From an uncultured Clostridia bacterium (GTDB taxonomy: Bacteria > Bacillota > Clostridia > UBA1381), in contig CALXRY010000007.1 in the NCBI GenBank assembly GCA_944390955.1, positions 1 through 38,791 on the forward strand: a stretch of DNA of 38,791 bases. The letters are read 5' to 3'. A program made the position numbers and the translations under genes. Below, piece by piece: positions 8,714 to 13,035 of the stretch (the stretch's first letter is position 1; every line of letters begins with the position of its first letter). The notes under the pieces were generated by a model that worked only from the letters and a program-made list of their open reading frames with translations, had not been told where the DNA came from and did not search any database.

Positions 8714-10555
8714 TTAATTTGATTTATGATGAAACGTCGGTACGATCTGTTCAAGCATTTCTATTACAGATTCTTTTTCATTATTGAGCGCCATACGCTT
8801 TATTATATTCAGCGCCCCCATAAACGTTTCTTCGTTTACGTATATCTGCTGACCTATAAAGATCTTCTTATTTTCCGTAGACTTAAGCCCCTCTTCATCC
8901 ATGAGCAGCTCTTCATACAGCTTTTCGCCCGGACGCAGTCCGGTAAACTTTATCTGGATGTCCTCATATGGTATTTTGCCGTGGAGACGTATAAGGTTTT
9001 CGGCAAGCGTCAGTATCTTGACAGGTTCGCCCATATCGAGTACGAATATCTCGCCGCCTCCGGCATCCGAAGCCGCCTGCAGTATCAATGACACTGCCTC
9101 GGGTATCGTCATAAAATACCGTATTATATCGGGATGCGTAACGGTCAGCGGGCCGCCCTCCTCAAGCTGTTTTTCAAACAGCGGTATGACCGATCCGTTG
9201 GAACCGAGAACGTTTCCGAAGCGCACCGTTATAAACTTCGTAACGCTCGAATGCTGCGCCATCTCCTGTATTATCATCTCACAGCAGCGCTTTGTCGCAC
9301 CCATGACGTTTGTCGGGTTCACCGCCTTGTCGGTAGAGATCAGCACAAATCTTTCGACCTTATAGAACTCGGCAAGCGTAGCTGCGTTGTATGTGCCTAT
9401 AATATTGTTTTTGACCGCTTCCTCGGGGTTATCCTCCATCAGCGGAACATGCTTATGTGCAGCCGCATGAAAAATAAGCTGGGGCTTATATGTAGAAAAC
9501 ACAAGATCAAGCTTTGCATAATCCCTTACCGAGCCGATCTCAACGTACAAATCAAGCGTATTGCCGTATTCATGCTTGAGCTCCTGCTGTATATCGTAGG
9601 CGTTATTTTCATATATGTCAAAAATTATTAATTTCCTCGGCCTATATTTCGCGATCTGACGACAAAGCTCCGAGCCTATAGAGCCCCCTCCGCCTGTAAT
9701 AAGGCACACTCTGCCGTTCACAAGCGAAGCAACGTTCTTATTGTCAAACGTGACCACGTCCCTGCCGAGCAGATCTTCTATTTTTATTCGTTTCGTCTGG
9801 TGAATAAGATCCTTGTCCACGCCTATCATTTCATGTATGTACGGCAATGTTTTTATTTCGCATCCGGTCTGTGAGCATATATCAATAATTTTCTTCCTTG
9901 ACGCAGCATCGAGCGACGGTATTGCTATAAGGATCGATTTTATATTGTATTTTTCGCACAGTGCGGGAATATCAGCCGTCTTCCCACGCACCTTTATACC
10001 CTTTACCATAAGCGACTGCTTGGCGTTGTCGTCATCAACCGCACATATTGGCTCATATTCGCAGTCGGTCTCCGTCATTTCCGATATGATCCTGTGCGCG
10101 GCATTTCCGGCACCTACGATAAGCGTCGGCATTTTCCCCGGCTGAGCTCTCGTCTGTTTTCTGATAAAGCCGTAAAGCCAGCTGTAGCCCGTCCTAAGCA
10201 CTACTATACCGCAAAGAGACACAAGATACGAAAACACAAGCATCAGCCGCGAATACGTGAATTCCAGCATATCGCACAATACATACGAAAAAGCAAAGCC
10301 TATCGTCAAACCCACAAAACACTTTATAAAATCGCTTATCTGGGCAAATCGCCATATATTGGTGTATACTCTGCAAATATACATGCAGGCTACAGACAGC
10401 ACGACAAACACCAGCACAGAGACATAATAGATGCTTATCGTTGCCGTCAGCACGTCCATTTCCGTAAGCATAACAAAGGCTATTATCGATGCAATTCCTA
10501 TAGTTGCGGCGTCTATGGCCATAAGCATCAGCTTTCTTATGTTCAGCCTCATCAT
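8714..10555 (-). CDS. FlaA1/CapD/PglF-type membrane nucleotide-sugar 4,6-dehydratase
   Basis: 613 residues, normal for the long CapD-like polysaccharide biosynthesis family. Residues about 8-125 form four membrane helices, followed by a CoA-binding-like Rossmann region (about 140-270, starting LIVGAGNAAHRII). The extended SDR domain has LITGGGGSIGSE near residue 287 for NAD(P). The active-site block STDKAVNPTNVMGATK has Met where ordinary SDRs have the catalytic Tyr, as known for PglF-type dehydratases. The likely reaction is conversion of UDP-GlcNAc to the 4-keto-6-deoxy sugar, an early step to bacillosamine-like or other modified sugars for surface glycans. Start follows GGAGGG. No complete glycan cluster is adjacent, so the end product is unknown. 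Confidence 0.88.
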   Translation of the reverse strand: MMRLNIRKLMLMAIDAATIGIASIIAFVMLTEMDVLTATISIYYVSVLVFVVLSVACMYICRVYTNIWRFAQISDFIKCFVGLTIGFAFSYVLCDMLEFTYSRLMLVFSYLVSLCGIVVLRTGYSWLYGFIRKQTRAQPGKMPTLIVGAGNAAHRIISEMTETDCEYEPICAVDDDNAKQSLMVKGIKVRGKTADIPALCEKYNIKSILIAIPSLDAASRKKIIDICSQTGCEIKTLPYIHEMIGVDKDLIHQTKRIKIEDLLGRDVVTFDNKNVASLVNGRVCLITGGGGSIGSELCRQIAKYRPRKLIIFDIYENNAYDIQQELKHEYGNTLDLYVEIGSVRDYAKLDLVFSTYKPQLIFHAAAHKHVPLMEDNPEEAVKNNIIGTYNAATLAEFYKVERFVLISTDKAVNPTNVMGATKRCCEMIIQEMAQHSSVTKFITVRFGNVLGSNGSVIPLFEKQLEEGGPLTVTHPDIIRYFMTIPEAVSLILQAASDAGGGEIFVLDMGEPVKILTLAENLIRLHGKIPYEDIQIKFTGLRPGEKLYEELLMDEEGLKSTENKKIFIGQQIYVNEETFMGALNIIKRMALNNEKESVIEMLEQIVPTFHHKSN

Positions 10556-11553: not shown

Positions 11554-12387
11554 TTAATTTCTATATTTTTCCGTTATCACCCCTGATATTGCGGCATATT
11601 GAGGATATTCCCGTCTTATCCTTGCATCGCATCGGAGACAGAAATCACGGCGCAGCCACGGCGTATCACGCATCTGCTGCTTCATGCCCCACGTATGCGT
11701 AAAGCATTTCTCCCCATGAGCAAACAGCCTTGCAAGATGGGAAAACGCTCTTACCTCTATTCCGAGTTTTGCGGCGCACATATTTATAAGCCGCTGCTCT
11801 GCAAACACCATATATCTGAGCGGATCACCGGTATTTTCCGCATTTTTCATAAACTCTATGGCAGTTTTTGTATAATAATCAAGCAATTCCTGCGACTTTA
11901 TGACAACAAACGCCGTATTGCACGCCGGAAGCTCCCAGTCAAGCTCTGGCCATTCATAGCTGCCGCGCATGGAAAAGCCGCTGCGCGGAGGGTACACATC
12001 CGGATAAAGTTCCTCAAAATGTATTACCGTACATTCGCCCAGCTTGTCAAAAAGTATCTCCTCCCATACGATAAAATCCGTATCGATCATCGCCGTCGGC
12101 GCTTTCTGCTTTCTCAGCGCAAAAAGCTTTCCCGCCGCCCAGAACATCTGCGGGTCAATATCGCCATCAACCTCTAGGCGCTCTGTCTCATCATATATTC
12201 CAATTATCCCTGTTTTTCTGTAATATTCAAGCGCCATATCATCGGCGCAGAGCTTTATCTTCCCGTTCTTTTCCTTCCACCTGAGAGCTGACAGAATCGT
12301 AGTAAGCAGCTCAAAATCCTCTATAAAATATTCTCCTCCGTGCCTTAAAGCAAACGGAGCCGTCCAGTTTATATGTATACCGTTCAT
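11554..12387 (-). CDS. glycosyltransferase-like protein coupled to the GSYGSF repeat protein
   Basis: 277 residues, soluble, no signal peptide. The segment APTAMIDTDFIVWEE (about residues 96-110) has a D-x-D followed by Trp, in the position and style of nucleotide-sugar-binding DXD motifs of GT-A transferases. The flanking LLTTILSALRWKEKNG and the C-terminal AEQRLINMCAAKLG blocks resemble capsular or DUF6734-like transferases from Firmicutes. I recognise no closer match. Its ATG overlaps the stop of the upstream repeat protein by 4 nt (ATGA), so the two are translationally coupled. It may glycosylate, or otherwise act on, that Ser/Tyr-rich partner or a surface polymer. This is inference from motif and coupling only. 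Confidence 0.65.
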   Translation of the reverse strand: MNGIHINWTAPFALRHGGEYFIEDFELLTTILSALRWKEKNGKIKLCADDMALEYYRKTGIIGIYDETERLEVDGDIDPQMFWAAGKLFALRKQKAPTAMIDTDFIVWEEILFDKLGECTVIHFEELYPDVYPPRSGFSMRGSYEWPELDWELPACNTAFVVIKSQELLDYYTKTAIEFMKNAENTGDPLRYMVFAEQRLINMCAAKLGIEVRAFSHLARLFAHGEKCFTHTWGMKQQMRDTPWLRRDFCLRCDARIRREYPQYAAISGVITEKYRN

Positions 12388-12941
12388 ATAAGATCTATCC
12401 CATATCCATTCACGAATATAAACGGATTTATTATATGCGCGTACGGATCCCTGTAGGAGCCGACGCCGTAAAGCGAACTGTGGGAGCCGCCGAATGAGCC
12501 GTAGGATCCCGAAAACGAGCCTGCGTACGAACCGACTCGCTCATATTCGTATTCGTATTCATACCAATGAAAATACGAGCCGCCGAACGATCCGTAGGAG
12601 CCTGAAAACGATGTAAGCAGAAATGACGAAGCATACGATGACATAAACGACCCGAAAGAGCCACCGCCTATCGACAGCGATTCGTCCCTCCATTGGACCA
12701 AAGCATATTCCGGCGCGGGAGCCTCGAACTCCGGCACAAAGCCGTCAAACGTTATGCCGGTCTCCGCTGCTGCTTTCTCCGTGACAGGAATAGCAGCGCT
12801 GACGTCGCCTATAGCCGTATAATGCATATCCGGCTCCGACGGAAGCGTAAATTCATTATCGCAGACGGCAATATATCTGCAGCCGCTGCCGACCGCCTCG
12901 CAGAGCTCCCTCTGCGAAAATACTATCGTATCAAATCTCAT
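12384..12941 (-). CDS. Gly/Ser/Tyr-rich GSYGSF-repeat protein, unknown function
   Basis: 185 residues in two parts. Residues 1-90 look globular and end in a Pro/Glu stretch (VPEFEAPAPEY). Residues 93-170 are low complexity, dominated by Gly, Ser, Tyr and Phe. The 11-residue unit FSGSYGSFGGS occurs exactly twice (112-122 and 143-153), separated by an alternating YEYEYEYE stretch (about 127-134). There is no signal peptide, membrane helix or catalytic motif. Only two cysteines occur (14 and 21), both in the N-terminal part. The start follows AAGGAGC and the gene has its own promoter. The Ser/Tyr-rich tail could be a scaffold or acceptor for the coupled downstream glycosyltransferase-like protein, or an adhesive or condensate-forming segment. 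Confidence 0.75.
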   Translation of the reverse strand: MRFDTIVFSQRELCEAVGSGCRYIAVCDNEFTLPSEPDMHYTAIGDVSAAIPVTEKAAAETGITFDGFVPEFEAPAPEYALVQWRDESLSIGGGSFGSFMSSYASSFLLTSFSGSYGSFGGSYFHWYEYEYEYERVGSYAGSFSGSYGSFGGSHSSLYGVGSYRDPYAHIINPFIFVNGYGIDLI

Positions 12942-13006
12942 ATATTGTCATCAGCTCCTTATAGATACAGCCCGGCAGAGGCTGAACATGTCTTTCTGTC
13001 TTTTTA

Positions 13007-13035
13007 ATTATAGCATATATATTAAAATTTCACAA
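13007..13035 (-). promoter_or_regulatory. promoter of the GSYGSF-repeat/glycosyltransferase-like pair
   Basis: Minus strand: TTGTGA (13035-13030), 17-bp spacer, extended -10 TGCTATAAT (box 13012-13007). About 65 nt before the ATG at 12941. Confidence 0.65.

Follow-up and report, generated by a model that had tools for sequence, protein, structure and literature searches.

Serine-rich repeat adhesins are glycosylated in the cytosol by dedicated transferases, GtfA and GtfB, and are large, secreted and wall-anchored proteins that depend on an accessory Sec system, whereas glycocins (SunS-type glycosylated bacteriocins) have a leader, disulfides, a transporter/peptidase and a glycosyltransferase different from the one considered here. 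The two clostridial genes described below, called REP and PAR, resemble the former in combining a dedicated, apparently cytosolic transferase with a low-complexity Ser-rich protein, but REP is small and comes without secretion, wall anchor or accessory Sec genes. With the latter they share a small gene adjoining a glycosyltransferase gene in Firmicutes; however, what is conserved here is a signal at the C-terminus, and export genes do not recur, there being no recurrent adjacent transporter/peptidase across 80 loci and no Cys-rich core with two disulfides (Cys makes up less than 1% of REP tails). Glycogenin (GYG1), the self-glucosylating primer of family GT8, shares with PAR a fold (about 207 residues), a DxD motif, a cytosolic protein acceptor and a Tyr-rich substrate, although the sequence identity is 10%. 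Unlike in glycogenin, PAR and its proposed acceptor are two proteins, the acceptor carrying a tag at its C-terminus, and no eukaryote-type glycogen synthase partner is known. PAR scores above the cut-off of Pfam DUF6734 (PF20508), a family without assigned function, in its N-terminal part only. In the open-access literature we found no paper naming DUF6734 or the tag motif, and wider searches gave only general papers on RiPPs or glycosylation. In short, REP and PAR together look like a protein-glycosylation system of two parts that has not been described.

The window, that is, the whole 38,791-nucleotide stretch analyzed (contig CALXRY010000007.1 of an uncultured Clostridia bacterium, assembly GCA_944390955.1), carries the pair on its minus strand, with the following features.

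11554 to 12387, minus strand: PAR, 277 residues, predicted GT-A fold glycosyltransferase (predicted structure and fold comparison)
11680 to 11697, minus strand: HTWGMK of PAR, residues 231-236, with H, W, G and K invariant; resembles the GT8 motif HxxGxxKPW
12076 to 12084, minus strand: DTD (DxD) of PAR, residues 102-104, predicted metal/nucleotide-sugar site, invariant in 62 homologues
12384 to 12941, minus strand: REP, proposed acceptor, 185 residues (open-reading frame translation)
12384 to 12407, minus strand: C-terminal tag GYGIDLI and stop, proposed docking tag for PAR (family-wide conservation)
12450 to 12668, minus strand: Ser/Gly/Tyr/Phe-rich low-complexity tail of REP; family-wide, the aromatics recur with a period of 4
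12483 to 12515, minus strand: second copy of FSGSYGSFGGS, REP residues 143-153, exact repeat
12540 to 12563, minus strand: YEYEYEYE tract, REP residues 127-134 (sequence)
12576 to 12608, minus strand: first copy of FSGSYGSFGGS, REP residues 112-122, exact repeat
12726 to 12941, minus strand: N-terminal domain of REP, residues 1-72, IVFSQ-ELxxA-LCDN-F-LP-Y-AIG, found only in the bacterial family of the window
12955 to 12960, minus strand: ribosome-binding site of REP, AAGGAG (sequence)
13007 to 13035, minus strand: candidate promoter for the pair, sigma-A-like, TTGTGA-17-TATAAT (by consensus alone)

A sequence-only reading of the window had described two open-reading frames of 185 and 277 residues joined by an ATGA overlap, an exact FSGSYGSFGGS duplication and a YEYEYEYE tract in the first, and a DXD-W motif in the second, and all of these were recovered: the TGA of REP overlaps the ATG of PAR, and the DXD-W motif corresponds to residues 102-108 of PAR, DTDFIVW. 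The DNA of the two FSGSYGSFGGS copies is identical at 28 of 33 nucleotides, the five differences all falling at third codon positions. The same reading gave the pair its own promoter, and a sigma-A-like consensus match with a TG element does lie at 13035-13007 of the minus strand (10 of 12 consensus positions), but the surrounding region holds 12 promoter-like sites against 5.7 expected, and upstream of REP relatives no clear conservation of a promoter was seen. What had escaped that reading is the conserved element, the C-terminus VNGYGIDLI. REP begins with MRFDTIVFSQRELC and ends with NGYGIDLI; no signal peptide or membrane segment is seen in it by eye, and neither REP nor its counterparts from other clades had any match in Pfam, NCBIfam or PHROGs. 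Because dN/dS over the whole of REP is about 0.08-0.27 between close relatives, with the tail under constraint as well, REP is a real protein under purifying selection, tail included.

That the partner is glycosyltransferase-like was borne out by structure prediction, since the AlphaFold2 model of PAR (62 homologues; pLDDT 96, pTM 0.92) has a GT-A fold. When the model was compared with solved structures, 998 chains aligned at Z ≥ 5, headed by glycogenin (Z 12.8, 207 residues, rmsd 3.8) and the UGGT catalytic domain (12.2), with WbbM (11.9), LgtC (11.8) and the Skp1 galactosyltransferase (11.2) among the further matches. Because these best folds lie within about 1.6 Z of one another, the predicted structure can be assigned to a GT8/GT24-like GT-A fold, and not specifically to glycogenin. 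A Pfam scan of PAR yielded only DUF6734 (29.2 bits against a cut-off of 27, residues 19-112 only) and no match to the GT8 profile (PF01501), and a PDB sequence search with PAR and with the N-terminal domain of REP returned nothing significant. Across 62 PAR sequences, down to 42% identity, the motifs DTD, AEQR and HxWGxK do not vary and NTAF hardly varies, a pattern that fits an active enzyme. The C-terminal motif of GT8 is HxxGxxKPW; in the HxWGxK of PAR the H, G and K are kept, but the K stands one residue nearer and the PW is absent. The C-terminal helix of PAR also contains an FCxRC motif with two nearly invariant cysteines (residues 250-253).

The Pfam model of DUF6734 was too weak for mapping the PAR family phylum-wide. 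Relatives were found with a purpose-built PAR profile, which recovered 177 in the named genomes; the best 80 of these 177 were fetched and read. At 62 of the 80 loci, an open-reading frame whose end matches GYG[LI]x[LI][IV], exactly or nearly, overlaps PAR or lies 0-51 nucleotides upstream, and these loci span Monoglobaceae-like MAGs, Butyricicoccaceae, Oscillospiraceae, Clostridium and Cellulosilyticum. The family consensus of the tag is [VA]-x-G-Y-G-[IL]-[NEHD]-[LI]-[IV]-COOH. In the family of the window, REP homologues, searched for in the 95 genomes of the order, have a common N-terminal domain some 70 residues long, continue in tails that differ in length and wording, and end in VNGYGINLI or VFGYGINLI. 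The N-terminal domain itself changes with the PAR clade, being of the IVFSQ type in the family of the window, the DGVxxDxxSY type in Butyricicoccaceae and the GYFLGGSL type in Oscillospiraceae; in Clostridium and Cellulosilyticum it is missing, and the tagged gene encodes a peptide of about 23-60 residues. Class-wide, the profile of the REP N-terminal domain matched nine genomes of the window's family and one further genome marginally, so that this domain is, judged by profile search, lineage-specific.

The tails are diverse too, with period-4 SSY/TSY/GSF types ([ST]S[YF]x units), GSYRTSS types and plain (SG)n in different clades. Their aromatic residues show autocorrelation peaks at 4, 8 and 12, and 639 aromatics have a Ser just before them; the mean composition of the acceptor tails is 21% Ser, 14% Gly and 10% Tyr, with Cys below 1%. 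Ser/Thr are present in every version of the acceptor, whereas Tyr outside the tag is not. Ruminococcal acceptors (L115, L128, L129, L132, L139 and L140) have WEWEWEW where the family of the window has YEYEYEYE, an alternating aromatic/Glu tract being kept mid-tail in both. In four loci of genus g89, family f54 (L206-L209), a long tract of nothing but Ser and Gly, SGSGSGSGGGSFGYGLELI, closes the acceptor and is reminiscent of the regions of animal proteoglycans to which attachment is made at Ser-Gly. Because N-terminal domains and tails differ between clades while the heptapeptide persists, the C-terminal heptapeptide is, by this comparison, the fixed part of REP and the tail the variable part. 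The earlier view of a dedicated pair defined by a GSYGSF-repeat protein therefore stands only as to the pairing, since that tail is swapped or missing elsewhere.

The pairing itself was followed by scanning whole genomes, most of them incomplete MAGs, with a degenerate DNA pattern for GYG-x-x-[LI]-I-stop. Among 291 genomes of the class, 14 have PAR and all 14 also have the tag pattern; the pattern occurs in 18, but the four matches without PAR read as frames of 15-58 codons and not as proteins, so that no convincing tagged protein without PAR was found in this set (a reversed-pattern control gave two single matches). Among 95 genomes of the order, PAR is present in 42, and the tag or REP in 40 of these 42. 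The tag pattern was found in 41 of the 95; two more PAR genomes carry the variant GYGVNLI, and in G093 there is one further match, GYGLKFI, at the level of the DNA pattern. PAR without a tag that we could find is confined to two MAGs (G005 and G048), and REP homologues without PAR, which by the sequence-only reading would speak against it if they were common, to two others (G020 and G045; completeness 81-87%), the four exceptional MAGs together being 77-87% complete. There is one tagged protein per genome, except that G040 has two matches, both at contig ends. Fisher's test gives p ~1e-20 for the class and the order tables alike, in both cases with shared ancestry left uncorrected. These results are strong evidence that REP and PAR form an exclusive pair with a functional link. 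A Spirochaetaceae bacterium MAG (L117) has a PAR homologue with no tagged gene directly upstream, which may reflect either an unlinked partner or lateral transfer of the transferase alone.

On this evidence, all of it computational, we think it probable that REP and PAR constitute a dedicated two-gene intracellular glycosylation system, in which PAR reads the tag and glycosylates the tail. PAR, a GT8/GT24/glycogenin-like GT-A enzyme, would recognize its single protein substrate by the C-terminal GYG[IL]x[LI]I and, from this docking site, transfer sugar to hydroxyls of the flexible low-complexity tail upstream, most likely those of the many Ser/Thr and possibly of Tyr. Once glycosylated, the tail might form a cytosolic scaffold or granule or act as a primer. 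A long tail is not needed, because the partner in Cellulosilyticum has only about 23 residues with few Ser/Thr, and the Tyr of the tag could itself be the acceptor residue, because it is the one invariant hydroxyl besides Ser/Thr.

The genes beside the pair vary by clade, and among the neighbors at the 80 loci no other gene recurs, be it for a protease, transporter/peptidase, immunity, sec or polysaccharide function; any export, cleavage or further glycan building would thus rely on genes elsewhere. This bears on the idea that REP is the RiPP-like precursor of a small product, the GYGxxLI segment being set free, perhaps with a sugar on its Tyr, and the tail acting only as a spacer. Such maturation would suit a protein whose C-terminus is its most conserved part and whose whole gene in Clostridium and Cellulosilyticum is a peptide of 23-60 residues, but a protease, transporter or immunity gene would be expected to recur beside the pair, and in most clades elaborate Ser/aromatic tails stand beside the tag under purifying selection, so that we regard it as unlikely. 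Plasmid and phage records gave no match. An IMG/VR contig (3300042922_001482; L210:4001-5766) encodes two tandem divergent PAR-like transferases, the first 39% identical, between phage tail-like and lysin/amidase-like genes and with no GYGxxLI gene adjoining, perhaps a use of the PAR enzyme family in phage virion glycosylation.

In one Clostridium locus (L099), the peptide gene and PAR lie in the same frame 36 nucleotides apart, and a read-through protein, with both stops read as Ser, was modeled with AlphaFold2 as one single chain, in which the linker is artificial and the free C-terminus of the peptide is blocked. Residues 1-52 were disordered (pLDDT < 50), whereas pLDDT averaged 69 over block 51-60, which holds GGYGLNLI and whose first two residues fall below 50, and 57 over the linker block; PAR exceeded 88. 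The model is suggestive only of a tag locally ordered beside PAR, as docking would require. An ordered tag would also suit a REP that binds through it as a regulatory, adaptor or scaffold subunit while the acceptor of PAR is a polysaccharide or a lipid; glycans are what most GT-A folds serve, and polysaccharide-type genes (epimerase/dehydratase, 8714-10555) lie near the pair in the window. We consider this quite unlikely, however, as across clades no polysaccharide gene recurs beside the pair, and a mere adaptor does not explain why tails rich in Ser/Thr/Tyr, (SG)n among them, evolved repeatedly.

Given that glycogenin is the top fold match and that REP is cytosolic-looking and Tyr-rich, the pair might also be a bacterial split glycogenin, in which PAR glucosylates Tyr/Ser of the tagged REP, the tag binds PAR or GlgA, and glucosylated REP primes glycogen made by GlgA or another alpha-glucan, or builds a glycoprotein granule. 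GlgA is indeed present in 39 of the 42 PAR genomes of the order (the three without it are 69-81% complete), but it is found in 84 of the 95 genomes overall, nearly as commonly without PAR, and because it is near-universal in the order its co-occurrence does not discriminate. Moreover, no more than 1 Z separates glycogenin from UGGT and LgtC, not every tail contains Tyr, and glycogenin homologues have been described as missing from the genomes of bacteria in which glycogen accumulates (PMC11046441). We therefore give this proposal little credence.

In a clade of 15 loci, REP and PAR have come apart by one change on the tree (support 99) and both are kept: REP, with the same C-terminus, lies on another contig than PAR and is flanked by hydF and a U32-family peptidase gene, while the gene preceding PAR codes for an O-methyltransferase (neighbors identified by sequence recognition). 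In genus g10 (L012, L017, L019, L023, L188 and L190) the operon is split in this manner, the hydF-like gene coding for a GTPase, and in a second small clade the two genes are likewise unlinked. The link between REP and PAR hence appears to work in trans, because both genes are kept where they are unlinked; the functional link that had been drawn from translational coupling holds, but coupling is not its sole basis. The location of the conserved residues at the very C-terminus, the short coding versions directly upstream of PAR and the ATGA overlaps might suggest that REP, as a leader or arrest peptide, governs translation of PAR in cis through this end. That idea is contradicted by the unlinked clade, with its different gene context, and by long N-terminal domains under selection, and was rejected as extremely improbable.

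If the reading of REP-PAR as a tag-guided glycosylation pair is true, common gut clostridia would possess a cytosolic protein-glycosylation system in which one acceptor, its body freely swappable, would be marked for one transferase by a tag of seven C-terminal residues. The tag would be testable and possibly portable for site-directed glycosylation, and the question of glycogenin-like protein primers in bacteria would be reopened. For the uncharacterized Pfam family DUF6734, the pair provides a concrete hypothesis.
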